Shown here piece by piece: positions 9,967 through 40,263 of a stretch of 42,007 nucleotides of DNA. A program made the position numbers and the translations under genes. The DNA lies in assembly GCA_027038295.1 (NCBI GenBank), contig JALVXD010000132.1:1-42007 (forward strand), in the 5' to 3' direction. Position 1 is the first letter of the stretch. Each line of letters starts with the position of its first letter. The notes under the pieces were generated by a model. The model made no database searches and was not told the origin of the DNA. It saw only the letters and a list, made by a program, of their open reading frames with translations. Source of the stretch: Campylobacteraceae bacterium (GTDB lineage Bacteria; Campylobacterota; Campylobacteria; Campylobacterales; Sulfurovaceae).

Positions 9967-10064
9967 GTAGGGTGTTTTCCCTGAAAACACCGTCAAAACC
10001 AAATGTAAGATTTTAATAAATTTTTAATGTTATAACACGGTGTTTTCAGGGGAAAACACCCTAC
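9967..10064. repeat. REP-like inverted pair A
   Basis: Two GTAG-hairpin units face each other. Left: GTAG, then GGTGTTTTC, loop CCT, GAAAACACC. Right: the same on the other strand with loop CCCT, ending in CTAC. The spacer starts CGTCAAAACCAAAT, shared with elements F and G. It lies between maeB and pgeF, beginning 3 nt after the maeB stop, and may end or protect the maeB transcript. Confidence 0.85.
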
Positions 10065-10082
10065 ACAAATAAAAGAAAAAAC

Positions 10083-10841
10083 ATGAAAAAAACCCACAAA
10101 TTCAAAAACCTATCAGCTCACAAAAACTCTACCCATCTCATCAGCAAAAAAGATTTAACCCAAGCTCATAACTTCTCTCTTGCCCTACATACAGGGGAAG
10201 AGCCTCAAAAGATTATAGAAAACAGAACTACTATAGCTAAAAGTTTTCCAAACATGAACTTCATCGTCGCCAATCAAACCCACAGTGACAATATAAAAGT
10301 CATTAAAGAAGCAAACAAAACTTGGCTCAGTAATAGAGCAGAACATGCCATAGAAGATTGTGATGCACTTATTACCAATCAAAAAAACATCATGCTTACC
10401 ATTCTTACTGCTGATTGTGTTCCCATACTTCTTTTTGACCCAAAACAAAAAGTAGTTTCAGCCATTCATGCAGGTTGGAAAGGAACAGAACAACAGATAG
10501 TTTTTAAAACTGTAGAGAAGATGAAAGAGCTATTTAACTCAAATCCAAATGACATCATAGCAGGAATCGCCCCATCTATTGGAAAGTGTTGTTATGAAGT
10601 AGACTGGAATGTGGCTCAACATTTTAAAGATGTAAAAGATGCTTATGATGAAAAAGATGAAAAATATATGTTAGATTTGCCCCACATTAACAAAATCCAA
10701 CTTCTACAAGCTGGACTAAAAGAAGAAAATATAGAACTCTCTAATATCTGTACGGCTTGTGAGGTAGATAATTATTTCTCTTATAGAAAAGAGGGAGGAT
10801 GCTCTGGGCGATTTATGTCGATGATTGGGTTAACTACTTAG
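10083..10841 (+). CDS. pgeF: PgeF/YfiH-family (DUF152) purine nucleoside phosphorylase-like protein
   Basis: 252 residues, the usual size of the family once called multicopper polyphenol oxidase and later linked to purine nucleoside phosphorylase/deaminase activity and peptidoglycan editing. The metal site is recognisable: His67 in NQTHSD, Cys112 in TADCVP and His129 in IHAGWKG. PSIGKCCYEV and the C-terminal YFSYRKEGGCSGR are also typical. The ribosome site is weak (AAAGAA). It overlaps the convergent rhodanese-like gene by 8 bp. The biochemical role is known from homologues only. Confidence 0.9.
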   Translation: MKKTHKFKNLSAHKNSTHLISKKDLTQAHNFSLALHTGEEPQKIIENRTTIAKSFPNMNFIVANQTHSDNIKVIKEANKTWLSNRAEHAIEDCDALITNQKNIMLTILTADCVPILLFDPKQKVVSAIHAGWKGTEQQIVFKTVEKMKELFNSNPNDIIAGIAPSIGKCCYEVDWNVAQHFKDVKDAYDEKDEKYMLDLPHINKIQLLQAGLKEENIELSNICTACEVDNYFSYRKEGGCSGRFMSMIGLTT

Positions 10842-11235
10842 TTAGCTCATACCCTGCCCTTATCCAAAAAACCACACCACCTTTAAGATTTAAAACCTCA
10901 TAGCCACGTTTGGACAATATTCGTGAAGCTTCTACAGAGCGTTCACCTCGCTCCGAATAGACCAATACTTTTTTATGTTCAGATGTATAGGTATTTGGAA
11001 TAGCCACCATTTCCATAGGGAGAGAAATCGCTCCTTTTATATGGTCTTTCTCAAACTCTTTTTTGGAACGAACATCTATGAAAGTTATGTTTTTATCATT
11101 TTCTAAAAGAGCATAAGCCTCTTGTGAAGAAACATTTTTAAAATCAGAAAAAACCCACCCTTTAAAGTAGGCAAAATACCCCAACATTAAAGCCATAAGA
11201 AGCTTCATGATAAGGTTTATTTTATTGTCTGTCAT
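10834..11235 (-). CDS. Membrane-anchored rhodanese-fold protein lacking the catalytic cysteine
   Basis: 133 residues. One N-terminal membrane segment (about 8-24) is followed by a single rhodanese domain: TFIDVRSKKEFEKDHIKGAISLP and the active-site loop LVYSERGERS. In active sulfurtransferases this loop has Cys (CxxGxRS); here the residue is Ser94. The fold should be intact but persulfide transfer by the standard mechanism is not possible. The gene starts 3 nt after the parvulin gene and is probably in its operon. It may bind or scaffold a partner at the membrane; the function is not known. Confidence 0.85.
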   Translation of the reverse strand: MTDNKINLIMKLLMALMLGYFAYFKGWVFSDFKNVSSQEAYALLENDKNITFIDVRSKKEFEKDHIKGAISLPMEMVAIPNTYTSEHKKVLVYSERGERSVEASRILSKRGYEVLNLKGGVVFWIRAGYELTK

Positions 11236-11238
11236 TAC

Positions 11239-11517
11239 CTATGCACGACTTGTAATCAAAAGTAAGTGGTAACCAAACTGAGTCTGAACTGGTCCATGAA
11301 CCACGCCTACCTCATCGTTAAAAACCACTTTGTCAAACTCTGGTACCATTGCACCTTGTCCAAAGCTTCCTAAGTCACCACCTTTTACACCCGATGGACA
11401 AAGCGAATTGTCTCTGGCTACCTCTTCAAAAGTTGCTTCACCTGAAGTGATTTTATCTTTTAACTCTTGGCATTTTGCCTCATCTTGTACTAAGATATGT
11501 TTTGCTGTTGCTGTCAT
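11239..11517 (-). CDS. ppiC: Parvulin-type peptidyl-prolyl isomerase (PpiC-like)
   Basis: 92 residues, a stand-alone parvulin domain very close in length and motif order to E. coli PpiC: AKHILVQDE, FEEVARDNSLCPSG, GGDLGSFGQGAMVPEFDKVVF and GPVQTQFGYHLL. There is no signal peptide, so it is cytoplasmic, where it would speed cis/trans isomerisation of prolyl bonds. AAGGA precedes the ATG. It is followed after 3 nt by the rhodanese-fold gene. REP-like pair B lies in its upstream region, beginning about 24 nt before the start. Confidence 0.92.
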   Translation of the reverse strand: MTATAKHILVQDEAKCQELKDKITSGEATFEEVARDNSLCPSGVKGGDLGSFGQGAMVPEFDKVVFNDEVGVVHGPVQTQFGYHLLLITSRA

Positions 11518-11540
11518 GTTTTTCCTTTTTTATTTTTTAA

Positions 11541-11647
11541 GTAGGTTTGACCATGTCAAACGTCAAATCCAAATATGCATTAATGGTTATGTGAAATAAT
11601 CATTAAATATAAAGCGAAATTTGACGTTTGGCATGGCACAAACCTAC
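11541..11647. repeat. REP-like inverted pair B
   Basis: Left unit: GTAG, GTTTGAC, loop CAT, GTCAAAC. The right unit on the other strand ends in CTAC, with an imperfect hairpin: GTTTG/CAAAC pair but the inner bases have drifted. The tail CGTCAAATCCAAAT echoes elements A, F and G although the hairpin arms are different. It lies between dnaG and ppiC. Confidence 0.8.
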
Positions 11648-11676
11648 ACGTTTAGAAAATTAATTAAATTTATGTT

Positions 11677-13326
11677 TTAAAATTTGTAAGAAACCAACTC
11701 TCCACGTTTTAAGCGTGGCATTATATCCATTTTTATTTTTTTTATCAAAAAACTCTTTTTTTCCAAGGGTATACTTGCATCAGTAGTTATACTTTTTAAC
11801 TGCATAGCATAGTGGCGAAAAAGAAAAGAAGCTAACGATTGTTTTAACTCTTCTTCACTCATAACTTTTATACTCTCATCTAAACTCAAACCTGTTATAG
11901 TTGGGTTCTCTTCTTTTTTTATCACAGCATCTAGTAACCCTGCATAAGCTCCAAACATAGAAAGCTCTATAACATTGGTTACTTTGTTTATAAAGTGTCT
12001 ATTTTCATGAAGTGTTTTTATAATGCTCAACTGACCCACATCATCACGGCTACCCTCTTCAAAACGTGCTTTGGTATTTTCTAACTTTGCATTTTTACCA
12101 AAAAGTGCTGAGTTTACACCCAAAACAGTTGAGGCATGAGATATATACGCATCACGAATAATCGGACTTAAATTATCTAGGTAAGTTTTCACATGCCCAA
12201 AAGCCACCTCTTTTTCTCGTGGGTTATTTAAGTCATAACTCTTTGCTACCATCTCTATAACAAAAGGAATCAAGGCTTGACCATGACGTAACAAGTTAGC
12301 CACCTCTTGCACTTGTCCTTGTGCTATCATGTCAGCAGGGTCTTTTCCATCAGGAAAAAGTACTACTGAACCATCAAATCCAGCCTCTGTAAGCATAGAA
12401 GCAGCCTTTAATGCAGCAGCAACCCCTGCTTTGTCACCATCGTAAGCTAAGACAATATGAGGTTCACCTTTTCGCAAAATAGGAAGATGCTCTTCGGTTA
12501 AAGCTGTACCTAGTGTTGCAACAGCCTCTTTAAACCCAGCCTGATGAAACATAATAACATCTAAGTACCCCTCACAGACTATGAGCTTTTTATTTCTATA
12601 GATACTATCTTTTGCTTTAGCATAACCGTAAAGTAGACGCGATTTATTAAACATTTTCGTTTGAGGTGAGTTAATGTACTTTGCAGGATGGTTAGTGATG
12701 GTTCGTCCACCAAAACCTACAATAGCACCACTTGCTGAATAGATAGGAAAAGTAATACGTTCCGTCAAACGTGCATAAAATCCACCCCGTTCACGCTGGG
12801 CAACTACCCCTGCCTCTTCAGCTTTAGGTATAGGTAAAAAGTTTTTAGCAAGAAAGTTCATAAGCTCATGAGAAGCCCCAACATACCCTATACCAAAAGT
12901 CTCTATGGACTGCTGAGTTATACCTCTATCTCTTAAATAGTCCATCGAAACAGGTGCAGAGACCAAGTTTTTAACATACCACTCTTGCACCTGTTCTAAA
13001 ACTCTTCTGGCTTCATTGTTGTCCGATGTACCTTGTGCATAAGCCAAAGAGAAGTTCATCATAGATGCTATTTTTTCTAATGACTCTGGGTAGTTTAATT
13101 TCTCATACTCCATCACAAATTTAATGGCATCACCACCAACTCCACATCCAAAACAGTGGTATATCTGCTTTGCAGGACTAATCACAAAACTCGGAGTCTT
13201 CTCACCATGAAAAGGACAGTTTGCCTTAAAATTAGCTCCTGCTTTTTTAACCTCAATATAGTTCGAGATAATCTCAACAATGTCCATGCTGTTTTTTAGT
13301 TGTTCAACCGATGCGTCATCTATCAT
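11677..13326 (-). CDS. dnaG: DNA primase
   Basis: 549 residues. The N-terminal zinc domain has Cys37-x2-His40-x17-Cys58-x2-Cys61 (CHC2 type). The TOPRIM core follows, with CEGYLDV (Glu252) and YDGDKAG (DGD 296-298). The C-terminal 150 residues would form the helicase-binding domain and are more variable. It makes RNA primers at the fork with DnaB. The start codon directly follows a perfect TATAAT (6 nt between) and there is no Shine-Dalgarno, so the message is probably leaderless. It is divergent from the TPR-rnc-aroC run with only 49 nt between. Confidence 0.97.
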   Translation of the reverse strand: MIDDASVEQLKNSMDIVEIISNYIEVKKAGANFKANCPFHGEKTPSFVISPAKQIYHCFGCGVGGDAIKFVMEYEKLNYPESLEKIASMMNFSLAYAQGTSDNNEARRVLEQVQEWYVKNLVSAPVSMDYLRDRGITQQSIETFGIGYVGASHELMNFLAKNFLPIPKAEEAGVVAQRERGGFYARLTERITFPIYSASGAIVGFGGRTITNHPAKYINSPQTKMFNKSRLLYGYAKAKDSIYRNKKLIVCEGYLDVIMFHQAGFKEAVATLGTALTEEHLPILRKGEPHIVLAYDGDKAGVAAALKAASMLTEAGFDGSVVLFPDGKDPADMIAQGQVQEVANLLRHGQALIPFVIEMVAKSYDLNNPREKEVAFGHVKTYLDNLSPIIRDAYISHASTVLGVNSALFGKNAKLENTKARFEEGSRDDVGQLSIIKTLHENRHFINKVTNVIELSMFGAYAGLLDAVIKKEENPTITGLSLDESIKVMSEEELKQSLASFLFRHYAMQLKSITTDASIPLEKKSFLIKKIKMDIMPRLKRGELVSYKF

Positions 13327-13332
13327 ATTGGT

Positions 13333-13338
13333 ATTATA
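13333..13338 (-). promoter_or_regulatory. -10 element placing the dnaG start at the ATG
   Basis: TATAAT on the minus strand, then ACCAAT, then the dnaG ATG. Initiation about 7 nt downstream of the -10 would fall on the A of ATG. No ribosome site can fit. Confidence 0.6.
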
Positions 13339-13375
13339 TCTAATGTGATAGAATATTAAGAAAAAAAGAGAACTT

Positions 13376-14425
13376 TTGGATAATATTTTACCTGCTTACG
13401 ATGACCCACTTTTTAGTATTTTGATTATTGTGGTACTTATTCTCATTGTTGCTATTGCTTCTTTTGTTTTAGGTAACATCAAAGAGGAGAGAAAACGTAA
13501 AAGTCTCAATCAATTTCTAAACCGTTTTAACACAAAAGAGTGTCAACTTGATGTAGAAGAGATGCCATTTGATAAAGCACTCATTAAACCTCTTACCATC
13601 TTAGCTCATGCCTTTAAAAATCAAGGGGAATACCAAAAAGCTATAAATTTAAACCTCTATCTTATAGAGAATATCTCAAAGTTTATTGAAAAAGAGATGA
13701 TACTTGAACAGCTTGGTCAAACCTACCTCAAAGCAGGTTTTTTAAAACGTGCCGAATCTATTTTTTTACAAATTCTAAGTAAACATGCCAGAAATAAAGA
13801 GGCACTCTACCATTTAGGGGTAGTCTATGAACTGCTACAAGAGCATGAAAAAGCCATTGAGACCATACAACCACTAAAAATTTTAGGTGAAAATACAGAA
13901 GCCCTAGAGGCACATCTTATATTAAATAAATTTTTAGTTAACAAAAAACTCTCCACACAGGAAAAAGTTGAAAAATTAACAGAACTACTCAATAATGAGC
14001 ATTATGCCTACAGACGAATTATGAAAGCACTTTTTGAACTGAATTTAGATGTTGCTTGGCACAATATAAAAAGTGACAAAATAAACTCTATACTTGATAT
14101 TCTATGGTTCTTACCCTCTTCAAACCTCAACTTAGATATAATTTCTACAGATGAAAAATTATCTGCCATCTATATTGCAAAAGGTTTCATAGAGCCTAAA
14201 GATGTCACTCCCAAAAGTGGTATTTTTGCTATTGACACCATTATTTCTGCTCAAAAAGGTGGAAACTTAGAAGTAGATTTAATCTTCAGCTATGGATGTG
14301 GAAAATGTAAACAACACTTCCCCATAAGCTTTACACGCTGTCCAAAATGTTATGCTATAGATGCAATACAAGTTAAAGAGACCGTTGCAAAAAAACAGTC
14401 ACATACAGGTTACTCTCTACTCTAA
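13376..14425 (+). CDS. LapB-like TPR protein with membrane anchor and zinc-ribbon end
   Basis: 349 residues, TTG start; no in-frame ATG precedes the membrane segment. The architecture is a single N-terminal membrane helix (about 11-33, then a basic KEERKRK), helical TPR-type repeats (for example [56 protein letters not shown]), and a C-terminal rubredoxin-like zinc site Cys308-x2-Cys311-x10-Cys322-x2-Cys325. Anchor, TPRs and rubredoxin-like knuckle in this order match LapB/YciM, the factor controlling LpxC turnover in enterobacteria. Orthology is inferred from architecture. It is the first gene before rnc and aroC; a -10 TAGAAT lies at 13349. Confidence 0.8.
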
Positions 14426-14454
14426 TAGCATCAAATAAAAAAAAGGAAAAACAG

Positions 14455-15132
14455 ATGAAACACCTTAAAGCACTCGAACAAGCTTTAAACTACAAGTTCA
14501 AACAAAGTGACCTCATCACCGAAGCACTCACGCATAAAAGTTATAAAAAACCTTATAACAATGAGCGATTAGAGTTCTTAGGTGATGCTGTCCTTGACTT
14601 AATAGTAGGAGAGTATCTTTTTAAGAAATTTCCAAAAGAAGACGAAGGCGTTCTCTCTAAAATTAGAGCTTCTTTAGTTAATGAAAAAGGTTTTACTAAA
14701 CTGGCTCTGAGCATTAACCTTGGAGATTTTTTACTTATATCTTCTGCTGAAGAAAATAATGAAGGAAGAACCAAGCCTTCCCTTCTCTCCAATGCATTTG
14801 AAGCCATTATCGGAGCCATATACCTAGAGTCTGGATTAGAGACTGTAGCCAAGATATCTATAGATTTAATAGAGTCAAACTACCCAACTATTGACCTCAA
14901 CTCTCTCTCTAAAGATTTTAAGACAACCCTCCAAGAGCTAACTCAAGCAGACTTTGGAGAGACTCCAACCTATAAACTCATAAAAACTTTTGGTCCCGAC
15001 CATAAAAAAGAGTTTGAAATAGCTGTTATATTACAAAATAAAAGCATCTCTTCTGCCATCGGTAAAAGCAAAAAAGAGGCACAACAAAAAGCAGCCGAAA
15101 TAGCTTTAAAAACATTAAGAGGCGAAGTATAA
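14455..15132 (+). CDS. rnc: Ribonuclease III
   Basis: 225 residues. The catalytic domain carries the signature [13 protein letters not shown] (36-48) with Glu40 and Asp44, and the second metal segment [16 protein letters not shown] with Glu116. The residue equivalent to E. coli Asp114 is Asn113, a conservative variant. The C-terminal half (about 155-223) is a double-stranded-RNA-binding domain ending [19 protein letters not shown]. It cleaves dsRNA in rRNA processing. AAGGAAAAACAG precedes the ATG. Its stop shares a base with the aroC ATG (TAATG). Confidence 0.96.
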
Positions 15133-16208: not shown

Positions 16209-16239
16209 TATTATATATAAAGTTTAATAATTTTTTAAG

Positions 16240-20699: not shown

Positions 20700-21701
20700 A
20701 TGGCATTTATAAAAATAAACAAAGAAAATTTCTTTCATAATCTATCTAAATTTACAAAAAAAACAGGTTCAAAAAACAGCATTGCTATTGTACTAAAAGA
20801 CAACGCCTATGGTCATGGCTTAGAACTTATGGCAAAACTTTCAGCTGAGTTTGGACTTACACAAGCTGTGGTTCGCACTTATGATGAGGCTCAAAAAATC
20901 AAAAAATATTTTAAACAGATACTCATCTTAGGTGACAAAGCTATTGTAGATGACTCTTGCTCTTTTGCACTTAATAGCTTAGAAGATATAAAAAAAGCTC
21001 AAATAGGCTCTATGGTTGAACTAAAAGTCGATACAGGAATGCACCGAAACGGTATAGCTATAGGTGAAATAGAAGAGGCTCTACAACTCATAAAAGAAAA
21101 AGAGCTTATTGTAAAAGGGCTAATGACCCACAACCGTTCAGCCGATGAATTAAGCTCTGAACTCTTTTGGCAACAAAAAAACTTTGAAAAAGCCGTAGGT
21201 GTGACCATGTCACACGTCAAAACCATACGTATTCACTCTTATAACTCTGCCACATCATTACGTCTCCCCTGCAATAACGAAGATATTATTCGCTTAGGCA
21301 TCGGAGCATACGGCTACTCTGAACTACCTGCTATTTACGATACCTTAGAATTAAAACCTGTTCTCTCACTCTGGGCAAAAAAAGTCTCAACAAGAGAGCT
21401 AAAAAAAGGGGAAAGAGTAGGATATGGTGGTCAATTCACAGCCCCAAAAAATATGACTGTCTCTACTTACGACTTAGGTTATGGTGATGGGTGGATGAGA
21501 AGTAACAGTTTTGAGCCATTTATTACGGCTGAAGGAGTACCTATCCTTGGTCGTGTTTCTATGGATTATGTTATTTTAGAGTCTACTAAAGATGAAGTGT
21601 GTATTTTTAATGATGCTTTAAGTGCAGGAAAAGCGTTGGGTACTATCTCTTATGAGCTTATGACACAACTACATACAGATATAAAAAGAGTGGTTATTTA
21701 A
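20700..21701 (+). CDS. alr: Alanine racemase (PLP)
   Basis: 333 residues, short but normal for this phylum. The PLP lysine is Lys33 in [10 protein letters not shown]; the second catalytic residue is Tyr242 in [29 protein letters not shown] and LGRVSMDYV are further family motifs. It makes D-alanine for peptidoglycan. The start is fixed by alignment to the family N-terminus ([14 protein letters not shown]). There is no ribosome site and TATAAT lies 5 nt upstream. It overlaps the convergent gene by 8 bp. Confidence 0.95.
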
Positions 21702-29822: not shown

Positions 29823-29891
29823 GTAGGGTGTGATTGCTATCACACCACTTACAAATAATATAATCATGGTGCAATAGCAATTGCACCCTAC
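29823..29891. repeat. REP-like inverted pair C
   Basis: Left: GTAG, GGTGTGAT, TGCT, ATCACACC. Right on the other strand: GTAG, GGTGCAAT, TGCT, ATTGCACC. The two units differ in the arm at several places, yet each remains self-complementary. The spacer is short (about 20 nt). It lies between hemN and the Fe-S protein gene. Confidence 0.85.
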
Positions 29892-29903: not shown

Positions 29904-31205
29904 ATGACAAAAAAACCAGAAGATATTTTTAATTTCCAAGAAACATCAGACGACTGTGTCAAATGTGGAAAGTGTATACCTGTCTGTACCATTCACCAAG
30001 TCAATGCCGATGAAGTAACTTCTCCTCGTGGATTTATTGACCTATTAGGACAATACCAAGCAGGAAACCTAGAGCTGGACAAAAATGCTAAAGATATTTT
30101 TGAGAGCTGTTTCCTCTGTACAGCATGTACCGAAGTCTGTCCCAATAGCCTACCTACTGACATGGTTATAGAAGAGGTTCGTGCTGATATTGCAGACAAA
30201 TTTGGTATTGCATGGTTTAAAAAAATTGCCTTTTATCTTTTAGAGCATCGTAAAGTAATGGACATAGTAATGAAGTTTGGCTTTATGTTTAAAACATGTG
30301 CTTTAGCTGAAGATGAAAAAGAAAGAGGACTAAAAGCTAGATTTAAAATGCCAATGGTCAAAAAAGGAAGGCTTCTTCCATCTATGTCAAAAGTCTCGTT
30401 TTTAAACTCTTACCCAGAAGAGATACCTGCACCAAAGCAAGAGAAGAAAAATATGCGTGTGGCACTCTTTATCGGTTGTCTTGGTAACTACAACTACACG
30501 GGTATTGGTGACTCTTTGGTTGAGATATTAAAAGAGCTAAACATTGACATTTTTATACCAAAAGAGCAACTCTGTTGTGGAGCCCCTGCCTATTTTACAG
30601 GGGCTGTTGACTCTGTTGAGCGTATGACCAAAGCCAACATAGAGTACTTTGAAAGTTTTATGGACGAGTGTGATGCCATGCTTATTCCAGAGGCTACCTG
30701 TTCTGCCATGGTTAAACATGACTGGCAAGTCTTTTTCAAAAATCATGACATGCCAGAGTGGGAAGCACGTGCTAAAAAAGTAAGCAAAAAAATATTTATG
30801 GCTACAGAGTGGCTAGATGACAACACAGAACTACAAGCACTTTTAAAAACAAAAGGAACTTTTGATACAACGGTTACTTACCATGACCCCTGTCACGCTA
30901 AAAAAGTGCAAAATATCTACAAACAACCACGTAACCTTTTAGCACCAAACTACCCTCTCGTAGAGATGAGTGAGTCTGATAGATGTTGTGGGTTTGGTGG
31001 GGTAACCATGCAGACAGAGAAGTTCCATTTTGCCGAAGCAGCAGGGAAACCAAAAGCAGCCATGATAAAAGAGACAAAAGCTCATTATGTAAGTGCAGAG
31101 TGTTCTGCTTGTAGGGTTCAGTTGAGTGAAGCGATGAACAATGCAGAGGTTGAGACTATTTTTAAGAATCCGTTGGAATTAATAGCTGAGGCTTTGAAGA
31201 AATAA
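29904..31205 (+). CDS. GlcF/LldE-like iron-sulfur protein with two CCG domains
   Basis: 433 residues. Two 4Fe-4S clusters are held by Cys18-21-24-28 (DDCVKCGKCIPVC) and Cys69-72-75-79 (CFLCTACTEVCP). Two cysteine-rich CCG domains follow (LCCGAP at 224-226; HDPCH and RCCGFGG at 361-363), as in glycolate oxidase GlcF, lactate dehydrogenase LldE and heterodisulfide reductase HdrB/D. A flavin-binding GlcD-type partner is not adjacent, so the electron donor (glycolate, lactate or another) cannot be named. The ribosome site is weak (GTGAG). It is bounded by REP-like pairs C and D. Confidence 0.88.
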   Translation: MTKKPEDIFNFQETSDDCVKCGKCIPVCTIHQVNADEVTSPRGFIDLLGQYQAGNLELDKNAKDIFESCFLCTACTEVCPNSLPTDMVIEEVRADIADKFGIAWFKKIAFYLLEHRKVMDIVMKFGFMFKTCALAEDEKERGLKARFKMPMVKKGRLLPSMSKVSFLNSYPEEIPAPKQEKKNMRVALFIGCLGNYNYTGIGDSLVEILKELNIDIFIPKEQLCCGAPAYFTGAVDSVERMTKANIEYFESFMDECDAMLIPEATCSAMVKHDWQVFFKNHDMPEWEARAKKVSKKIFMATEWLDDNTELQALLKTKGTFDTTVTYHDPCHAKKVQNIYKQPRNLLAPNYPLVEMSESDRCCGFGGVTMQTEKFHFAEAAGKPKAAMIKETKAHYVSAECSACRVQLSEAMNNAEVETIFKNPLELIAEALKK

Positions 31206-31207: not shown

Positions 31208-31349
31208 GTAGGGTGCGTTTTCCAACGCACCGTTTAAAAAATAGGCATATCAACAAATATCGCCGAAAGGCTTAAAAAAATAAGCCTTTCGGCAAAAACA
31301 TAAAATTATGCAAACATCAATACACGGTGCGTTGGAAAACGCACCCTAC
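31208..31349. repeat. REP-like inverted pair D with a central hairpin
   Basis: Left: GTAG, GGTGCGTT, TTCC, AACGCACC. The right unit is the same on the other strand, loop GGAA. The spacer is longer (about 95 nt) and holds a further 13-bp hairpin. It begins 2 nt after the Fe-S gene stop; its right CTAC provides the stop of the convergent NUDIX gene. Confidence 0.85.
31262..31293. terminator. Strong hairpin between convergent genes
   Basis: GCCGAAAGGCTTA pairs perfectly with TAAGCCTTTCGGC around six A. It is central between convergent genes and inside pair D. A-runs flank the stem on the plus strand, so on the minus strand U-runs precede and interrupt it. It is probably a bidirectional stop. 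Confidence 0.55.
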
Positions 31350-31906
31350 CTATCAAACCACCACATAAAAGAAAACATCAAACCAACCGTTTTACCTATG
31401 CTCTCATCATACATAAACTCTTTTGCTTCGCTTACAGGTATCTCAACAACCTCTATCTGTTCATCCTCTATGCCACCACCTTGACTAACTCTCATAGATT
31501 CATCTACCTCTACATAGTAGATAGTTTGACTACCACCAGAGGTTCCAACAGAGCTTAAGACTTTAGTTATACGCTCTATATCTTTAAGAGGAACCTCAAA
31601 ACCACACTCCTCCTCTATCTCCTCTTTGGCTATCTGCTCTAAAGATTTATCTTTATCAATCAGACCTGCACACAACTCTACTGTCATACCATCACCATTT
31701 CTATGATAGACAGGAGGTCTAAACTGCTTTACCAAAACAAACGATTTTCGTTCTGTATGATAGATTAAAATAGCTACAGAATCATGTGATTCGACAATTT
31801 CCCATGATTTTTCTATTCCATTTTGTCTATATGTTGCCAATGCCGTCTTTACAAAACTTGCATTTTCTAAGGGTTGAAGTTTAAACTTTTCTATTATATT
31901 TCGCAT
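31346..31906 (-). CDS. NUDIX hydrolase (nucleoside diphosphate-sugar type)
   Basis: 186 residues from the ATG at 31906. The NUDIX box region is GLIDKDKSLEQIAKEEIEEECGF. The EExG part is intact, but the Glu at position 7 is Lys and the Arg of REU is Glu, so metal binding may differ. The upstream FVLVKQFRPPVYHR resembles ADP-ribose/UDP-sugar pyrophosphatases. An upstream in-frame ATG (31912) is too close to GAGG. The chosen ATG shares a base with the stop of the M23 gene. Its TAG stop lies inside the GTAG of REP-like pair D. Confidence 0.85.
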   Translation of the reverse strand: MRNIIEKFKLQPLENASFVKTALATYRQNGIEKSWEIVESHDSVAILIYHTERKSFVLVKQFRPPVYHRNGDGMTVELCAGLIDKDKSLEQIAKEEIEEECGFEVPLKDIERITKVLSSVGTSGGSQTIYYVEVDESMRVSQGGGIEDEQIEVVEIPVSEAKEFMYDESIGKTVGLMFSFMWWFDR

Positions 31907-33111
31907 TACCATCCTCTGTTTTGATAATAGTTTTTCATCTTAGGAGAGACACCAATATCATTGACTGTATTCCAAACTTGAGAAGGTGTTTGATTTTTAA
32001 ACAGTTCATCTATTATCTTAGTATATTTTATTTTTCTTGCTATAAATGCTCTCTTCCCTTTTCCTGTCAATCCATCTGTAGAAAATTTTACCATACGCAT
32101 AGGGTCTATAGCACGTCCATTTTTATAGAGTCCAAAATGCAAATGAGCCCCTGTACTTCGACCTGTATTTCCTACATAGCCTATAACTTGTCCTGCAGAT
32201 ACATACTGTCCTAGTTTTGCCTTTAATCTACTCTGATGAGCATATAGAGTTACATAATTATCTTTATGTTGAATCTTAATAACATTACCATACCCACCTT
32301 TTCGACCAGCAAATATGACCTTGCCATCTGCAGCTGCTAAGATAGGTGTACCTCGTTTTGCTCCAAAGTCTACCCCATGATGAGCTTTCCATTTATGCAA
32401 TATAGGATGCCAACGTCTTTTTGTAAACTTTGAAGTAATACGTATATGATTAAGAGGTCTCCTCATATATTTTTTAATAAGAACTTTACCATTTTCATCA
32501 TAATACTTATGGTCAGTATGTTTAAAAACATAATGCTTTTTACCAGCTGTCTCCAACATAGCAGCTTTTATATTTGGGACACCTATAGGCTGACCAAGAC
32601 GCATTTTTTGAGTATATACAATAGCTAAAGAATCACCTTTTTTAATCGTTCTAAAATTCACGCTATATTTAAGAAGACGAGTAAACTCATTGGCTAATCG
32701 TCTATTTTTAATTTTTTTAACAATATCTCCATAAGGACTACTATCTATCTTAAGTAGAGCAATATAGGTGTCTTCCTGATACTCTATAGGAATCACCTCT
32801 AATTTATAACCTCTATGTGTCTTATACAAATGAAGTTGCAACTCCTCACCTACAGGAATAAGTGCTTGTAAAAGTACTCCTGTACTAGCAATAAGTTCAT
32901 AATAACTTCGACAATTCTCTACATCTGATACAATAAGCGTATCATCTCCATCCAACTCGTCTAAAACAGTTTTTGGGACATTATGCTTTTGAAGGTAGGT
33001 TGCAAAACTCATACCGTTTACCCATGCCAAACGCTTTACTTTTGCAGCAAATGTTATCGTTGATAAAATCAACAGTAATACAAGGACTCTGCGTAAACCA
33101 ATACTCCTCAA
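31906..33111 (-). CDS. M23 peptidoglycan endopeptidase, Csd3/HdpA-like
   Basis: 401 residues, TTG start with GGAG upstream. The N-terminal hydrophobic signal (VLVLLLILSTITFA) is followed by two accessory domains (about 25-215) and a LytM/M23 domain with zinc ligands in HHGVDFG (His245, Asp249-region), the catalytic YAHQS and GAHLHFG (323-325). Size and domain order resemble H. pylori Csd3/HdpA, which trims peptide crosslinks and sets helical shape. The match is by architecture. It is coupled to the NUDIX gene (TAATG). Confidence 0.82.
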   Translation of the reverse strand: MRSIGLRRVLVLLLILSTITFAAKVKRLAWVNGMSFATYLQKHNVPKTVLDELDGDDTLIVSDVENCRSYYELIASTGVLLQALIPVGEELQLHLYKTHRGYKLEVIPIEYQEDTYIALLKIDSSPYGDIVKKIKNRRLANEFTRLLKYSVNFRTIKKGDSLAIVYTQKMRLGQPIGVPNIKAAMLETAGKKHYVFKHTDHKYYDENGKVLIKKYMRRPLNHIRITSKFTKRRWHPILHKWKAHHGVDFGAKRGTPILAAADGKVIFAGRKGGYGNVIKIQHKDNYVTLYAHQSRLKAKLGQYVSAGQVIGYVGNTGRSTGAHLHFGLYKNGRAIDPMRMVKFSTDGLTGKGKRAFIARKIKYTKIIDELFKNQTPSQVWNTVNDIGVSPKMKNYYQNRGW

Positions 33112-33445
33112 AATTTCTCCTATAGTCAGTTATATCAATTATAACTTATGCTAACTAAAAGCTCAAAGTAACATTATATAACTATAAGATTTTTTAAGTA
33201 AACTTCGCACATGAAACATTTAAAAGGTTATAAACAACGTTACTTTTCATTAGCTATTATTGCTATGTATTCAACATTGTTTAAATTATGTACAATTGAC
33301 GCAAACTACAAGTACCATAAGTATGCCTTTAAAACCCCTGAACATAAGACTTCTCCTCCCTATCTGTACGCTTATTATTTACTGTAAAACATATTAATAA
33401 TGTTCGGTGTTACCGAACCTACGTAACATATATCAAGGAAACAAA
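33112..33445 (+). other. 334-nt gap before the cobalamin receptor gene
   Basis: The stretch is T-rich. It holds a possible -35 TTGACG (33296) with a poor -10, an unassigned 58-codon frame (33211-33387, no ribosome site) and a solitary REP-like unit at the end. The cobalamin-riboswitch core and B12 box were looked for by eye and not found. Confidence 0.5.
33402..33422 (-). repeat. Solitary REP-like unit H, just upstream of the TonB receptor gene
   Basis: On the minus strand: GTAG, GTTCGGT, AAC, ACCGAAC. The 7-bp stem is perfect. It ends about 23 nt before the ATG, so it will be in the receptor leader and near its ribosome site. No partner unit is visible. Confidence 0.7.
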
Positions 33446-35305: not shown

Positions 35306-35318
35306 AATAAATTTATAC

Positions 35319-35424
35319 GTAGGTTTGACCATGTCACACATTAAATCTCGGTTTGAATTAAATGGATATTTATAATTTTTATTTATGCCATGTTTATTTT
35401 GACGTGTGACACGGTCACACCTAC
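35319..35424. repeat. REP-like inverted pair E
   Basis: Left: GTAG, GTTTGAC, CAT, GTCACAC with one T-C mismatch. Right on the other strand: GTAG, GTGTGAC, CGT, GTCACAC, perfect, followed by CGTCAAAA as in other elements. It lies between btuB and btuF. Confidence 0.8.
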
Positions 35425-35445
35425 GGTTTATGAATTCAATTACAT

Positions 35446-35451
35446 TATAAT
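35446..35451 (+). promoter_or_regulatory. -10 element of btuF
   Basis: TATAAT ends 12 nt before the ATG; the sequence between is almost all A. The leader would be about 6 nt without a Shine-Dalgarno. It suggests that btuF is transcribed separately from btuB, after REP pair E. Confidence 0.5.
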
Positions 35452-35463
35452 AAAAGCAAAAAA

Positions 35464-36300
35464 ATGAATAAAATATTACTAATACTATTTATAACTCTAA
35501 CCCTAAATGCCCAAGAACGCATCATCGCTCTAAGCCCATCAATCAACGAAATTATATTTGCACTAGACGCAGGTGAGCAAATAGTTGGCAACACCGACTA
35601 CGCACTCTATCCCAAAGCATCTATACCCATACCCAAAGTGGGTGGCTACTTTAGCCCCTCTTTAGAAAAGATAGTCTCACTAAAACCAACCCTAGTCATT
35701 ATGCAACAAAACAACCACAAACTTAGCCTAAAACTTGGACAACTTGGTATTAAAACTAAAATTATAAAAATAGACAAACTTGAAAATATTAAGAAATCTA
35801 TTATAGAAATTGGTGATATTTTAGATAAAAAAGAGAGTGCTAAAAAAATCGTTAAAAATATTAATGATGAACTCAAAAATTTAAAAAATATAGTGACTAA
35901 CAAAAAAATCCTCATTGTTTTTGGACGTTACATCAAATTAGACAAACAAGTTTTTGTGGCAGGTCAGAACCTCTATTTTGATGAAATCATTAACGAAAGC
36001 AATAACACAAATGCCCTACAATCAGAACGAAAAGGTCAACCCATTTTAAACATGGAAAACATCATAGCTTCTAACCCTGACATTGTCCTACTTTTAGCAC
36101 GTTGTCAAACAGATGGAGTTGACAATAAAGAGCTTATCAAACCTTGGTTAGAGTTGCCTATAAGTGCCTCTAAAACAAACTCTATTTATGTTAATAACAA
36201 TATTTATGCCTCAATGCCCAGTGACCGTTTGGTTCTCTTTTTAAAAGATTTTAAAAATATGTTAGATGATTATAAAGAACGTATAAATCTTAAAAATTAA
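35464..36300 (+). CDS. btuF: Periplasmic cobalamin-binding protein (BtuF-like)
   Basis: 278 residues. The signal (KILLILFITLTLNA) is followed by the class III binding-protein fold: RIIALSPSINEIIFALDAGEQIVGNTDYA, then PKVGGYFSPSLEKIVSLKPTLVI and, after the linking helix, IIASNPDIVLLL and ASMPSDRLVLFLKDF. This is the pattern of BtuF/FhuD-type proteins. Its position between the receptor and the ATPase/permease supports cobalamin. It would pass ligand to the BtuC permease. Confidence 0.85.
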   Translation: MNKILLILFITLTLNAQERIIALSPSINEIIFALDAGEQIVGNTDYALYPKASIPIPKVGGYFSPSLEKIVSLKPTLVIMQQNNHKLSLKLGQLGIKTKIIKIDKLENIKKSIIEIGDILDKKESAKKIVKNINDELKNLKNIVTNKKILIVFGRYIKLDKQVFVAGQNLYFDEIINESNNTNALQSERKGQPILNMENIIASNPDIVLLLARCQTDGVDNKELIKPWLELPISASKTNSIYVNNNIYASMPSDRLVLFLKDFKNMLDDYKERINLKN

Positions 36301-36357
36301 TTCATTCCATATTAATAATAAAGTATACTTATTTAAGTATGGAAAAAAGGGAGTGTG

Positions 36358-37131
36358 ATGAAAAGAAAAATTATATTGAGCACAATGGCGACAGCAGGAT
36401 TACTTTTAAGTGGATGTGTATCGAACCCTCTAATACCTTCAAATTTAAGTGATAACAACAACCAAAAAGCACTAACATTTAAAACCAACACAACAAGTTT
36501 CATAAGTGAATTAAAAAATCGCAACAGTTATATGGATGAGTTTATATTGAAATCAGACATGCAGTGCGAAAACTACTTAAATATGCCACAAGTACAAGCC
36601 ACTACAGAAGCAGAAAATAGCAGTTTATACATGAATATATTCGATACAGTCAGTACCCTCTTTGGAATGAAACTCATTACCGATACTGCCAAAGTAATGG
36701 TCTCGGGAGAAGAGGATAAAATAGAAAATCAAAACTCTTACAAACAGGCTCTCTCTCCAGAAATTTTTAGAGGTGTTGAGATTAATAGAGAACGCTATGC
36801 TAAAAAAATGAAAAACAAACAAAAACTCTCTGAAAAAGAGTACTCTTTAGAAGCATTTCAAAAAGATATGCTAACCTACGACAAACAGTGTGCTGAAGAG
36901 TATGGGCTTATTGAGATTAATAGAGCATTAAAAGCGATGCAACAAAACATCCACCAACCAGCACTTGCCTCTACCAAAGCACCCATTAGTATTGAGGCTG
37001 TTAAAAACTCTGTAAAAGCCGTTACAGAAGAGGTTAAAGCCAAAAAAGAGACAGAAAAGAAAAAAGAGACAGAGAAAAAGCAAGAAATAGAAAAAACAGA
37101 AGTTAAAAATGACACAAATCAAACAAAATAA
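36358..37131 (+). CDS. Hypothetical lipoprotein inside the cobalamin cluster
   Basis: 257 residues from the ATG at 36358 (GGGAG upstream); the preceding GTG is too close to the ribosome site. The lipobox LLLSGC predicts lipidation at Cys20. Helical segments with two single cysteines follow (DMQCENYL, DKQCAEEY), and the C-terminus is a strongly charged Lys/Glu repeat (KKETEKKKETEKKQEIEK) that resembles a periplasm-spanning tail. No family was recognised. It is 9 nt upstream of btuD, so it belongs to this operon; a role in the transport system is inferred only from position. Confidence 0.65.
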   Translation: MKRKIILSTMATAGLLLSGCVSNPLIPSNLSDNNNQKALTFKTNTTSFISELKNRNSYMDEFILKSDMQCENYLNMPQVQATTEAENSSLYMNIFDTVSTLFGMKLITDTAKVMVSGEEDKIENQNSYKQALSPEIFRGVEINRERYAKKMKNKQKLSEKEYSLEAFQKDMLTYDKQCAEEYGLIEINRALKAMQQNIHQPALASTKAPISIEAVKNSVKAVTEEVKAKKETEKKKETEKKQEIEKTEVKNDTNQTK

Positions 37132-37140
37132 AAGTAGACA

Positions 37141-37833
37141 ATGCTAACAATTGATAACTATAGTAATGAAATTTTAAAAAATATCTCTTTTGAACTAAAA
37201 ACAAATGAAAACCTCATTATTTTAGGCTCAAACGGTGCAGGAAAATCCACCCTTGCCAAGGTACTCTGTGGCATTACCCCCTCTTCGTGCGTTACTCTTC
37301 ACGGACAAGAGTTACACAAAGTAAAAGTGAAAGAACGAACAAAGTACATTAACTATATTCCTGCAAAACTAGAGATATTTGATGAGTACATCACCCTTAA
37401 CGAATACCTTAATCTAAGCCGTCTCCACACACTTTTAGAGTCTAATAACATGCTAAAACTTTTAGAGATAGACCACCTAAAAAACAAACCTTGTCAACAA
37501 CTAAGCTCTGGTGAGCAACAACTTACCATGTTAGCTACAGCCGTACTTCATAATGCAAAAATTACTATTTTTGATGAACCCACAGCCAACCTAGACCCAC
37601 AAAAAAGTCGTAATATTTTTTCATTACTTAAAAGTAACATCTTTCAATCTAAGATTATTATTACTCATGACCTAAACCTCGCCTACCGTTTAGGATATAA
37701 AGTACTTTGCATTAATGAAGGTCAAATTACCTTTTTTGATAGCTCTAAAAAGTTTTTTAATGAATCCAATCTTAATGACTATTTTGGAACTTCGATTAAA
37801 ATGATAGATGATTGTGTTGTGGTGAATTTATGA
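37141..37833 (+). CDS. btuD: ABC transporter ATPase (BtuD-like) with altered Q-loop
   Basis: 230 residues, short but complete. Walker A GSNGAGKS (29-36), signature LSSGEQQ (121-127), Walker B ITIFDEP (141-147) and the H-loop in IITHDLN are present. At the Q-loop the usual glutamine is Ala75 (NYIPAKLEIF), which could alter coupling to the permease. It would energise cobalamin import with BtuC. The last bases contain ATGA, where a 17-codon frame starts before brnT; the true permease gene is 1.4 kb further down. Confidence 0.88.
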   Translation: MLTIDNYSNEILKNISFELKTNENLIILGSNGAGKSTLAKVLCGITPSSCVTLHGQELHKVKVKERTKYINYIPAKLEIFDEYITLNEYLNLSRLHTLLESNNMLKLLEIDHLKNKPCQQLSSGEQQLTMLATAVLHNAKITIFDEPTANLDPQKSRNIFSLLKSNIFQSKIIITHDLNLAYRLGYKVLCINEGQITFFDSSKKFFNESNLNDYFGTSIKMIDDCVVVNL

Positions 37834-37883
37834 AGTATTTTATTTTAATATCTTTTGCTATAATAAATAAAATAGAAGGATAA
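37830..37883 (+). other. 17-codon frame overlapping the btuD stop
   Basis: The ATG overlaps the btuD TGA, and the frame reads MKYFILISFAIINKIEG before a TAA. Hydrophobic residues after MK look like the start of a membrane protein such as BtuC (MKPILYLLALTLIII). It may be the remnant of the original next gene cut off by the islet, or chance. Confidence 0.25.
37859..37864 (+). promoter_or_regulatory. -10 element of brnTA
   Basis: Perfect TATAAT, followed 10 nt later by GAAGGA and the brnT GTG. The module thus has its own promoter inside the btu cluster. Confidence 0.5.
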
Positions 37884-37885
37884 AT

Positions 37886-38164
37886 GTGGCTTTACAGTTT
37901 GAATGGGATGAAAAAAAAGCTAAAATAAATAAACGGAAACATGGTATATCTTTTGAAGAGGCAACAACAGCATTTGCTGATGAACTTTCAATTACAATTG
38001 ACGACCCACTACATAGTGATGATGAAGATAGACTTATTTTAATTGGTCAATCTAAGCAATTTAAAACTTTGGTTGTTGTTCATGTTGAACGAAGAGAAAC
38101 CCTACGAATTATTTCAGCAAGAAAAGCAACAAAGCATGAACAAAAATTTTATGAGGAGTATTAA
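37886..38164 (+). CDS. brnT: BrnT-family toxin (DUF497)
   Basis: 92 residues, GTG start (GAAGGA 5 nt upstream). The family pattern is clear: FEWDEKKAKINKRKHGISFEEATTAFAD, then the strand pairs RLILIGQSKQFKTLVVVHVERRETLRIISARKAT and the terminal HEQKFYEE. BrnT has a RelE-like fold and cuts RNA during stress. Two nt separate it from the antitoxin gene, in the toxin-first order typical for brnTA. Confidence 0.9.
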   Translation: MALQFEWDEKKAKINKRKHGISFEEATTAFADELSITIDDPLHSDDEDRLILIGQSKQFKTLVVVHVERRETLRIISARKATKHEQKFYEEY

Positions 38165-38166
38165 TC

Positions 38167-38379
38167 ATGAATCAAAAAGATGAGATGTTAGAAGAGTATG
38201 ATTTTAGTAATGGTATTAGAGGAAAGTATGCACAAGCTTATAAAGAGGGTGTTAATATTGTAAAATTAGATACAGATGTAATGAAATTTTTTCCTGATGC
38301 TAAGTCTGTAAATGAAGCGTTACGAACTTTAATTAATTTGATGAATAATGGTCAAAATCCCTTAAAATTAAGTTCGTAG
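38167..38379 (+). CDS. brnA: BrnA-like antitoxin
   Basis: 70 residues. The N-terminal EEYDFSNGIRGKYAQAYKEG is the toxin-wrapping segment commonly seen in partners of DUF497 proteins; the rest (VKLDTDVMKFFPDAKSVNEALRTLI) looks like a ribbon-helix-helix dimerisation and DNA-binding unit, so it should repress its own promoter. Its TAG stop is provided by the GTAG of REP-like unit F. Confidence 0.8.
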   Translation: MNQKDEMLEEYDFSNGIRGKYAQAYKEGVNIVKLDTDVMKFFPDAKSVNEALRTLINLMNNGQNPLKLSS

Positions 38380-38399
38380 GGTGCGATTGCCATCGCACC
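38376..38399 (+). repeat. Solitary REP-like unit F at the brnA stop
   Basis: GTAG, GGTGCGAT, TGCC, ATCGCACC, followed by CGTCAAAACCAAA as in pairs A and G. No opposing unit is found in the 60 nt before the next gene, so it looks like half of an element. The GTAG overlaps the brnA stop. Confidence 0.8.
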
Positions 38400-38460
38400 G
38401 TCAAAACCAAACTTGCATAAAATTATGTTTGTACAAAAAAATTTTAGAATAAGATTTTAA

Positions 38461-39225
38461 ATGAAAATAGTAAATTGGAATTGCCATGGAGCTTTACGAA
38501 ATAAGACAGAGCAATTAGATAAATTAAATGCTGATATTTATATAATACAAGAGTGTGAAGACCCCAAATTATCAACTAAAAAGTATAGAGCGTGGGCAGG
38601 AAACTATCTATGGATTGGAGATAACAAAAATAAAGGCATTGGGATTTTTTCTAAGAACAATATTAATATACAGAAGCTAGATTGGAATGGGAGTTTTAAG
38701 ATAGAAGGTCTAAATAGTACAAGTAGTTTAATTTCTTGGAAAACATCTGATTTAAAACTTTTTCTTCCTTTTTCAGTTAATAATACATTTACTATTTTAG
38801 CTGTTTGGACAAAAGGAAAACAAGGAGAAAGGTTTGACTATATTGGACAAGTTTGGAAATATCTACAAATTCACCGTAAAGATTTACATCAAAAAAAAAC
38901 ATTTATTATAGGAGATTTTAATAGTAGTCAAAAATGGGATAAGGATAAACGAGCTGACGCTTGGTGGAATCACTCTTCTGTAGTTGAAGAGTTAAGTGAT
39001 ATTGGATTTGAGAGTTTATATCATTTTAAAACAAATGAGTTACAAGGGCAAGAGACAAAAGCTACTTATTTTCATCATAAAAAAAGAGAAACTCCTCATC
39101 ATATTGATTATGTTTTTTGTTCAAAAGAGATGTTATCTCTTCTTGAATTAGACATTAAACAGTATGATGATTGGATAAAGATAAGCGACCATATACCTCT
39201 GGTTGTAACTATAGGCAAAAAATAA
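38461..39225 (+). CDS. Endonuclease/exonuclease/phosphatase (EEP) family protein
   Basis: 254 residues, no signal peptide. Catalytic motifs are in place: VNWNCHG (4-10), IIQECED with Glu31, GDFNS (151-155) and SDHIP (Asp243, His244). The family includes ExoIII-like nucleases and phosphatases; the substrate cannot be told. There is no clear ribosome site: a -10-like TAGAAT ends 10 nt before the ATG. It follows brnTA and the solitary REP unit, and the btuC gene starts only 3 nt after its stop, so it is probably part of the foreign islet in the cobalamin cluster. Confidence 0.85.
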   Translation: MKIVNWNCHGALRNKTEQLDKLNADIYIIQECEDPKLSTKKYRAWAGNYLWIGDNKNKGIGIFSKNNINIQKLDWNGSFKIEGLNSTSSLISWKTSDLKLFLPFSVNNTFTILAVWTKGKQGERFDYIGQVWKYLQIHRKDLHQKKTFIIGDFNSSQKWDKDKRADAWWNHSSVVEELSDIGFESLYHFKTNELQGQETKATYFHHKKRETPHHIDYVFCSKEMLSLLELDIKQYDDWIKISDHIPLVVTIGKK

Positions 39226-39228
39226 TAC

Positions 39229-40170
39229 ATGAAACCCATACTCTACCTCCTAGCCCTAACCCTCATCATCATCATAGCCCCATTTCACGGGCAGATTCCC
39301 ATAGAACTCTACAACTTAGACAACCCAACAACCGTAGACTACAAACTCTTTTGGGATATACGTCTGCCTCGTGTACTGGTGGCTTTTTTTGCAGGGGGTA
39401 TTTTGGCTCTTGGTGGGCTTATTTTTCAGTCTTTGTTTAAAAACCCTATGTCTACACCCTATACTTTAGGGGTGGCTAGTGGTTCTACTCTTGGGGTGGC
39501 TTTTGCTATTGTGTTTGGGTTCTCATCTATGCTTTCTCTTTTTGGTTTTTTTGGGGCATTGTTTACCGTGATTATTCTTTTTGCTCTTACTTTAAGACTA
39601 AAGTCCTATGAGACCAATGCCCTGCTTTTGGTGGGGATTGCCCTTGCATTCTTTTACAATGCTGCCTTGATGATTCTCTTTTACCTTAGTGATGAGTCAC
39701 AAAGTTTTGAGATTATTCGTTTTACCATGGGGTCTGTTGATGTCGTTGGTTTAGAGAACACGCTACCCATCATTTTTGCAAGTCTTGGGCTTTTGGCTCT
39801 TTCTACTTTTTACAAAAAAGAGTTAAAACTTTTACTCACCTCGAACGACTACGCCTACTTAAAAGGAGTGAACGTAAAAAGAACCAACACTGTTTTACTA
39901 GTTTCTGTCTCTATAGCAGTGGGTGTTTGTGTAAGTCTTACAGGACCTATTGGTTTTGTGGGGTTGATTATTCCTCATATTGTTAAAACAGTCTATAAAA
40001 AATCTGCCGAACAGTTAATTTTGCCTATCTTCTTTTATGGAGGGTTCTTTTTAGTTCTCAGTGATTTAATAGCTCGAAATTTAGGGAGTAGCTCGGACAT
40101 ACCCATAGGCATTATAACTGCCTTTTTGGGTGGTCCATTTTTTATCTATTTGATTATGAAAAAACGGTAG
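39229..40170 (+). CDS. btuC: Cobalamin ABC permease (BtuC/FecCD family)
   Basis: 313 residues with about 9-10 membrane helices. Family motifs: RLPRVLVAFFAGGILALGG, FQSLFKNPMSTPYTLGVASG, GPIGFVGLIIPHIVK and the terminal FLGGPFFIYLIMKK. It works with the BtuD-like ATPase (1.4 kb upstream) and the BtuF-like protein. The start has no proper ribosome site and is 3 nt after the EEP gene stop, as though the original junction with btuD had been disturbed. Its TAG stop is the TAG of the GTAG of REP-like pair G. Confidence 0.9.
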   Translation: MKPILYLLALTLIIIIAPFHGQIPIELYNLDNPTTVDYKLFWDIRLPRVLVAFFAGGILALGGLIFQSLFKNPMSTPYTLGVASGSTLGVAFAIVFGFSSMLSLFGFFGALFTVIILFALTLRLKSYETNALLLVGIALAFFYNAALMILFYLSDESQSFEIIRFTMGSVDVVGLENTLPIIFASLGLLALSTFYKKELKLLLTSNDYAYLKGVNVKRTNTVLLVSVSIAVGVCVSLTGPIGFVGLIIPHIVKTVYKKSAEQLILPIFFYGGFFLVLSDLIARNLGSSSDIPIGIITAFLGGPFFIYLIMKKR

Positions 40171-40263
40171 GGTGTAGTCCCTGACTACACCGTCAAAACC
40201 AAATTTGCATTTTAATCAATTTTAAATATAAATAACACGGTGTAGTCAGGCACAACACCCTAC
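40167..40263. repeat. REP-like inverted pair G
   Basis: Left: GTAG, GGTGTAGTC, CCT, GACTACACC, perfect. The right unit on the other strand is GTAG, GGTGTTGTG, CCT, GACTACACC with two mismatches. The spacer begins CGTCAAAACCAAAT and ends ATAACAC, as in pair A. It lies between btuC and the cobT-like gene. Confidence 0.85.

Follow-up and report, generated by a model that had tools for sequence, protein, structure and literature searches.

GTAG-tagged REP hairpins of a Campylobacteraceae genome covary hairpin by hairpin and differ between sister species at orthologous sites

How do repetitive extragenic palindromic (REP) sequences change and yet stay palindromic and matched to their transposase? 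The question is raised by a stretch of 42,007 nucleotides (the window; contig JALVXD010000132.1, here C132) from a Campylobacteraceae bacterium of Sulfurovum type whose 2.81-Mb draft genome (GCA_027038295.1) consists of 293 contigs, and it is made testable by sister REP sites that can be aligned and that hold intermediates. The elements concerned are GTAG-tagged REP hairpins, mostly arranged as inverted pairs (REPINs), and belong to at least five families. The tightest covarying unit is the hairpin with its two arms, not the element with its four, and in family 1 the hairpins reassort between spacers. It is moderately probable that REPINs are spread by REP-associated tyrosine transposases (RAYTs), that their arms are coupled and rearranged in place by template switching, and that whole swaps need a donor copy. 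Relative genomes, contigs and loci are labelled G, C and L followed by a number, and the family names 1 to 5 are coined here.

The initial annotation placed eight such elements in the window, six pairs and two solitary units, and identified them as REP sequences. All eight are present, although a further solitary unit at 21195 was missed, and their identity as REPs and REPINs is borne out by GTAG followed by a perfect or imperfect palindrome, by many copies, by inverted pairing and by folding. The pattern GTAGGGTGN6-20CACC (GTAGGGTG-type) is matched 141 times genome-wide and its reversed control once, and GTAGGTKTGACN2-5GTCAMAC, which covers GTTTGAC and GTGTGAC arms, 88 times with no control match, far above chance; a perfect single palindrome matches on both strands and is counted twice, as at five places in the second search. 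The own REP sites were drawn from four exact patterns, which miss degenerate units; the GGTGT subset (69 matches) and the GGTGC subset (66) were listed whole, and the wider GTAGGGTGN6-20CACC pattern only in part. Of the 34 genus genomes, 31 contain this wider pattern one or more times; in some of them the copies are few, and there the control, too, is matched once. Other genus genomes carry other arms. The families are as follows.

Family 1: GGTGTxxxx.
Family 2: GGTGCGAT and variants.
Family 3: GGTGC(C/T)GTT and GGTGCGTT.
Family 4: GTTTGAC/GTGTGAC.
Family 5: GTCGG...

Of 92 own pairs, 87 consist of two hairpins from the same family, where 25.1 are expected and 20,000 shuffles gave 42 at most. 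The test used 92 of 94 own pairs; the underlying list of 101 rows also holds single palindromes and overlapping pairs, which are excluded from the family tests together with rows with an unparsed hairpin. Within the hairpin, arm agrees with arm in 45/46 own hairpins of family 1 and 6/6 of family 2, and the single free pair of family 4 agrees in 57/58; this check is a genuine one for families 1 and 2, is limited to a single pair in family 4 and has no force in family 3. In the family 1 loci examined from three genomes, the arms match in 137 of 143 hairpins (single palindromes counted on both strands, five family 2 hairpins that match the pattern excluded), and the 137 perfect ones use five arms only: TAGTC, TTTTC, TAGAC, TTGTC and TTGTG. 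The six imperfect hairpins comprise four single-base changes and two chimeras of known alleles, one in window element G and one at L155 of G023. That none of the five alleles is private, and that each chimera joins two known alleles, is in agreement with an overwriting of hairpins and whole elements in which gene conversion, or strand transfer by a RAYT, draws on other copies and would reshuffle a small hairpin pool without any part for template switching. That the five alleles are joined by single pair steps agrees instead with ordinary REPIN families, in which copies of a master inherit arms and spacers together and later point mutations are selected for pairing.

Between the two hairpins of an element the picture depends on the family. 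Hairpins of a family 1 pair carry the same allele in 7/23 cases against 6.7 expected (P=0.52). Family 4 pairs match in 23/29 cases, with 14.4 expected (P=0.002), or 18.0 within length classes (P=0.028); this test omits four pairs with a GTTTGTGCC hairpin, two matching and two not, and with these added 25/33 match against 16.3 expected (P=0.003). Family 3, scored on the bulge base and not on the arm, matches in 10/14 pairs (4.7 expected, P=0.004), and family 2 in 2/3. The proposal of the initial annotation that arms are exchanged as sets of four thus stands at the family level, where in addition both hairpins' family differs between species at one orthologous site, and is rejected as a general rule by the family 1 alleles. 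The excess of within-element identity that it expected is absent from family 1 and present in family 4, where arms and spacers are linked.

The nine elements of the window are listed below.

Element A, 9967..10064, plus strand: family 1 REPIN with hairpins GGTGTTTTC-CCT and GGTGTTTTC-CCCT and spacer CGTCAAAACCAAA...TGTTATAACACG.
Element B, 11541..11647, plus strand: family 4-type REPIN with two differing hairpins, GTTTGACCATGTCAAAC and GTTTGTGCCATGCCAAAC.
Solitary unit, 21195..21215, plus strand: family 4, GTAG-GTGTGAC-CAT-GTCACAC (GTGTGACCATGTCACAC, then GTCAAAACC).
Element C, 29823..29891, plus strand: family 2 REPIN with two differing hairpins, GGTGTGAT and GGTGCAAT.
Element D, 31208..31349, plus strand: family 3 REPIN without the usual bulge (GGTGCGTT-TTCC, four arms GGTGCGTT).
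Unit H, 33402..33422, minus strand: solitary hairpin GTAG-GTTCGGT-AAC-ACCGAAC.
Element E, 35319..35424, plus strand: family 4 REPIN with one changed arm (GTTTGAC vs GTCACAC).
Unit F, 38376..38399, plus strand: solitary family 2 hairpin GGTGCGAT-TGCC, then GTCAAAACCAAACTTGCATAAA.
Element G, 40167..40263, plus strand: family 1 REPIN with left hairpin TAGTC/TAGTC and a chimeric right hairpin, outer arm TTGTG and inner arm TAGTC.

The four arms of an element, said to match for the most part, do so in A (four times GGTGTTTTC) and D, but not in B and C with their two different hairpins, in one arm of E or in the right hairpin of G. The spacer end CGTCAAAACC is, as claimed, common to units with different arms (A, G, F and 21195). 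All six window pairs fold end to end, each beating 200/200 shuffles (z from -3.75 to -14.61), and a window REPIN folds either as one long hairpin or as two short ones, each arm having more than one partner. In the window, the nine elements lie outside the listed open reading frames (ORFs) of at least 100 amino acids, except for the unit at 21195 and small overlaps at 33402 and 40167. Element A begins 3 bases past ORF 8674-9963, and D sits between the convergent ORFs 29904-31205 and 31346-31912. Unit 21195-21215 lies inside ORF 20700-21701; unless the ORF call is too long, a REP has entered a gene there. Relatives have empty sites for B (G023, G024 and G027), E (G023) and others; the elements may have moved as units. 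Element C is identical in G027, E differs from its G027 counterpart by a single base (T here, G there), and H is the same in G023 and mutated in G027.

Ordinary REPIN families predict that arms and spacers go together. In family 1 they do not, since over 23 elements spacer similarity predicts the arm at neither end (P=0.67 and 0.21). Four elements whose spacers are 0.79-0.89 alike have four different hairpin pairs: window A TTTTC/TTTTC, window G TAGTC/TTGTG, L042 TTTTC/TAGAC and L040 TTTTC/TTGTG. Some close family 1 spacers do share TAGTC/TAGAC, as ordinary families would have it, namely L106/L105 (0.81), L106/L091 (0.77) and L087/L055 (0.76). In family 4, arms are linked to spacers (P=0.0008, 29 elements). 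The independence asserted by the initial annotation is thus supported in family 1, and family 4 gives the outcome that the annotation had itself named as contrary to its reading. The family 3 spacers of window D, L063, L075, L077, L090, L096 and L127 contain an inner repeat with GAAAGGCTT, which is inverted in some copies.

The nearest named relatives are known from metagenomes, and most bear the label Sulfurovum sp. or Campylobacteraceae. The median flank identity to the own genome is 92.8% for G027 and 94.1% for G023, and that between G023 and G027 is 91.4%; by these values, G027 is likely the outgroup of the other two. All 39 planned stretches of G023 and 41 of the 60 planned in G027, taken from the matches listed, were examined, as were 48 of a set of 80 loci, some in part. 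The main orthologous set has 32 element pairs, of which 14 have spacers in the same orientation (identity at least 0.83), three have reversed spacers (about 0.82 or more, at two sites) and 15 have lower identity; these last are a mixture of replacements, a deletion at L040, one-flank cases next to RAYTs (L054, L104) and L104:1664, whose parse is doubtful. A second comparison under other rules covers 31 comparisons and adds L050.

In the 14 of these 32 comparisons between the own genome and a relative that have alignable spacers (own rows, identity at least 0.82, with L055:70 just below at 0.816, and 3 of 28 hairpins skipped), 3 of 199 base pairs have changed on both sides and are still paired, and five have changed otherwise. 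From the spacer divergence (34 of 714), 0.15 paired changes are expected, and the earlier view that ordinary drift does not suffice is supported in this respect. At L042, the 47 spacer bases compared and the left hairpin are identical to those of G023, and the two right hairpins, TAGAC-CCC and TAGTC-CCT, differ at one pair and one loop base. At L060, each hairpin has one paired change relative to G023, and the own genome equals G027 there. At L065, a single arm of the four departs by two bases from L155 of G023 and is of the type found in the other hairpin, and the loop and spacer (0.94) differ slightly as well. At several other orthologous sites the element shows either no change or single changes that are unpaired. 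These unchanged elements and the arm-spacer link of family 4 agree with ordinary REPIN families; the paired changes above independence, the three altered hairpin bases next to an identical spacer at L042 and the family 1 reassortment do not, and we regard this explanation as unlikely.

Spacers have also been inverted between hairpins that are kept. The spacer of L055:70 resembles that of G027 at 0.82 when reversed and at 0.52 when forward, with TAGAC on the left and TAGTC on the right. Reversed spacers are further seen at L050 vs G027 (0.98), at L039 vs G027 (0.88, one flank only) and in the tail-to-tail pair L108 vs L169 (0.96), and more weakly at window G vs G022 (0.69 reversed, 0.51 forward). 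A single GTAG-hairpin-CTAC palindrome faces a relative's REPIN at L126 vs L202, L090:7688 vs L171 and L115 vs L199, and the direction of change at these sites would be a collapse of the REPIN into the single palindrome. Perfect single palindromes of this kind occur at L049:489, L056:1001, L074:2798, L099:1001, L112:12612, L114:15250 and L126:1001, and are probably REPINs collapsed by a deletion between the two hairpins.

Replacements are also seen at fixed sites. At site A, the own element and that of G023 differ in arms, spacer and length (98 vs 146) within the same boundaries; 143 bases of left flank are identical between the two, as are the first 34 of the right flank, which agrees at 43/45 and at 90/100 over longer stretches. 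The site holds a single TTTTC palindrome in G024, a damaged CAAT-type pair in G009 and another hairpin in G027, and in the more distant loci the gene is not followed by any GTAG hairpin with a known arm type. Site D carries family 3 in the own genome and one shared family 1 element in G023, G027 and L212 (right end broken there); L214 and L216 have a single hairpin, L215 a TTTTC pair and L221 another hairpin. The elements at site D all start between 2 and 6 bases past the stop codon, the left flank agrees at 43/45, and the right boundary agrees within about 1 to 3 bases. At L111, three sister species carry three families: family 3 in the own genome, family 2 in G023 (L132) and family 1 in G027 (L192). 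The own and G027 spacers of this site are 0.77 alike and are reciprocal best matches of 135 (next best 0.73 and 0.76), and the spacer has likely been retained between them; the G023 spacer has whole-length similarities of only 0.36 and 0.38 owing to a long insertion, its ends being similar by eye.

A base-exact replacement was considered for site C as well and rejected, because the family 1 REPIN of G023 lies in the same intergenic gap with flanks offset by about 18 and 3 bases. In the distant relatives' loci L224, L225, L227, L235 and L250, the corresponding gap, upstream of the gene matching 29904-31205, contains another dispersed hairpin, TTCCCACGC...GCATGGGAACGAG-like. Site C, with two insertions at slightly different bases of one gap, and the other hairpin elements that several relatives hold in the same gaps are what independent insertions of different REPINs at a hot spot, mimicking replacement, would leave. 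A hot spot defined by a flank motif was rejected as too weak (about 1.9 bits over 12 bases, 156 flanks; mainly C or T before GTAG), and the agreement of A to the base and of D within 1 to 3 bases also tells against independent insertions, which are distinctly unlikely as the general explanation.

Misassembly of short-read metagenomes at repeats would produce false swaps and chimeric hairpins too. The genomes are drafts, some contigs end near REPs (L155 and L132 among them), and two G023 contigs, C12 and C119, overlap by about 127 bases just before site A, which suggests an assembly branch and perhaps strain variation. Against this stand element D, which lies within contigs in three assemblies and on which G023 and G027 agree, and element C, on which the own genome and G027 agree; misassembly is very unlikely to account for the changes.

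Taken further, the replacements admit the tentative view that REPIN sites are long-lived sockets, at which the hairpin family is swapped at both ends while flank and spacer are kept, families turning over by such re-tipping besides new insertions. Weaker candidate cases are L094/L166 and L054/L161; at L094 vs L166 of G023, the orthologous spacer ranks only 32 and 8 of 135. The swaps at A, D and L111 need a donor, as overwriting from other copies would provide, and the changed L042 hairpin is a type present elsewhere, loop included (TAGTC-CCT). Gene conversion of REPs was reportedly proposed by Higgins et al. in 1988. On the other side, the shared homology is short (about 25 bases), and no near-identical donor for A or D was found among the loci examined, the best other copies being 76% identical for D (own L077), 89% for own A (L129 of G023; 87% within the own genome) and 76% for the G023 element at A. 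Moreover, the inversion of spacers between unchanged hairpins fits template switching at inverted repeats better. Overwriting as the sole cause is rather unlikely.

RAYT genes, for which the initial annotation had advised a search, are present in the same genome. It has five Y1_Tnp hits, four of which were scored with the RAYT model NF047646 (NCBIfam); those on C222, C285 and C231 pass its 80-bit cut-off (103-146 bits) and are RAYTs, and that on C134 fails (25.9 bits) and is IS200-like. The fifth copy, on C52, carries a stop. Three own RAYT genes have REP hairpins on both sides, namely C222 and C52 (family 3 REPINs) and C285 (GTCGGTTTC hairpins, family 5), and C231 has REPs on one side only in the stretch seen. 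The RAYTs of G027 C6 and G023 C188 also pass NF047646; the former is flanked by family 1, and the latter by family 2 on one side and a contig end on the other. No RAYT flanked by family 4 was found, the five own Y1 hits included. A Y1_Tnp match occurs in 30 of the 34 genus genomes. The coding sequence of the family 2 RAYT contains a REP-like stretch, GTAGGGTGCGATTGCTATC(A/T)CACC, at G023 C188:290-313 (L161) and G027 C137:36196-36219, which encodes the peptide VGCDCYHT in G023. The published RAYT of another species cuts single-stranded REP at nearby sites, reading GTAG, and its cutting is harmed by a stem mismatch and less by changed stem bases (PMC8266576).

The preferred reading, in which RAYTs spread the elements and template switching couples and rearranges the arms, can be put in steps. 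REPINs are presumably spread by the RAYTs of their own genome, as the association of the genes with REPs and the analogy with published RAYTs suggest, and the two ends of an element would share a family probably because a single RAYT has to recognise each of them. A changed arm would most likely be copied onto its inverted partner by template switching while the folded strand replicates, with selection against unpaired stems helping to keep the arms matched; the same folding may rearrange arms and spacers in place. Under a RAYT that depends on stem pairing and accepts some base changes in the stem, stems would drift in sequence and yet stay paired. A new family or a whole-element swap would require a donor copy, brought in either through recombination or through cutting and rejoining by a RAYT. 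The inner arm of each chimera is the same as an arm of the other hairpin, as copying inside the long hairpin predicts. Template switching is reported to make arms uniform and to turn the spacer round (PMC8604942), and also to produce compensatory changes of several bases (PMC8794818).

Several points weigh against this reading. There are three paired changes in all, two of them in one element. TAGTC, the inner arm of the chimeras, is also the commonest allele, so that a source within the element is not singled out. The chance-level match between family 1 hairpins of a pair means that copying between the two hairpins of an element is rare or outpaced. Some close family 1 spacers, moreover, share their alleles. 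The one-base bulge of family 3 is kept in most listed copies, and family 5 keeps a stem mismatch in 11 hairpins, seven GTCGGGTTG/CATCCCGAC and four GTCGGGATG/CTTCCCGAC (L075:828, L080:803, L082:9545, L102:10618); thus, arms are not always corrected to a perfect palindrome. Template switching within an element cannot import another family, as at D and L111. Finally, all three genomes are drafts, G023 and G027 from metagenomes and the own one in 293 contigs.

Inverted spacers and half-changed hairpins, which template switching predicts, are both found in the present comparison. Should families indeed be replaced in place, the number of REPINs would record not only transposition but also re-tipped old sites, and estimates of transposition rate that are based on copy number would have to be revised. 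A random-mutation origin of covarying REPs was called improbable in 2010 (PMC2817692). In an E. coli alignment with 1,037 variable loci, 129 of these hold palindromic units, according to a study that treats dimorphic loci generally and comes close to the present finding (PMC2884548). A site-by-site account of REPIN replacement or inversion was not found in the literature searched, whose coverage leaves out preprints and most subscription journals.

The elements described here resemble the REPs of PMC3733652, which describes a GTAG REP super-family and names Sulfurovum sp. NBC37-1 as a carrier of GTAG and CGTC repeats, in their GTAG tail, stems of 5-13 bp, mostly short loops and head-to-head dimers mostly 20-100 bp apart, and also in forming homodimers and heterodimers, subfamilies with complementary stem changes and several families per genome. 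Unlike in the available text of that study, orthologous sites are compared here, showing spacer inversion, the change of a single hairpin and replacement. Unlike the REPINs with RAYTs described in PMC3116915, the family 1 hairpins here reassort between spacers. Arm homogenisation, spacer inversion and multibase compensatory change are shared with the template-switching cases of PMC8604942 and PMC8794818, which concern yeast coding DNA and RNA genes and do not mention REPINs in their abstracts. The REPs flanking orthologous rayt genes differ and yet stay palindromic and inverted (PMC2817692, 2010), and orthologous RAYTs flanked by different REP classes have been termed an 'orthoswitch', with the mechanism left open (PMC3686654, 2013). 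Since palindromic covariation at orthologous RAYTs was in print in 2010, the present work extends known work; in contrast to these two studies, which deal with REPs beside rayt genes in the text available, it adds that similar changes occur at dispersed elements, with intermediates, which merits a wider test.

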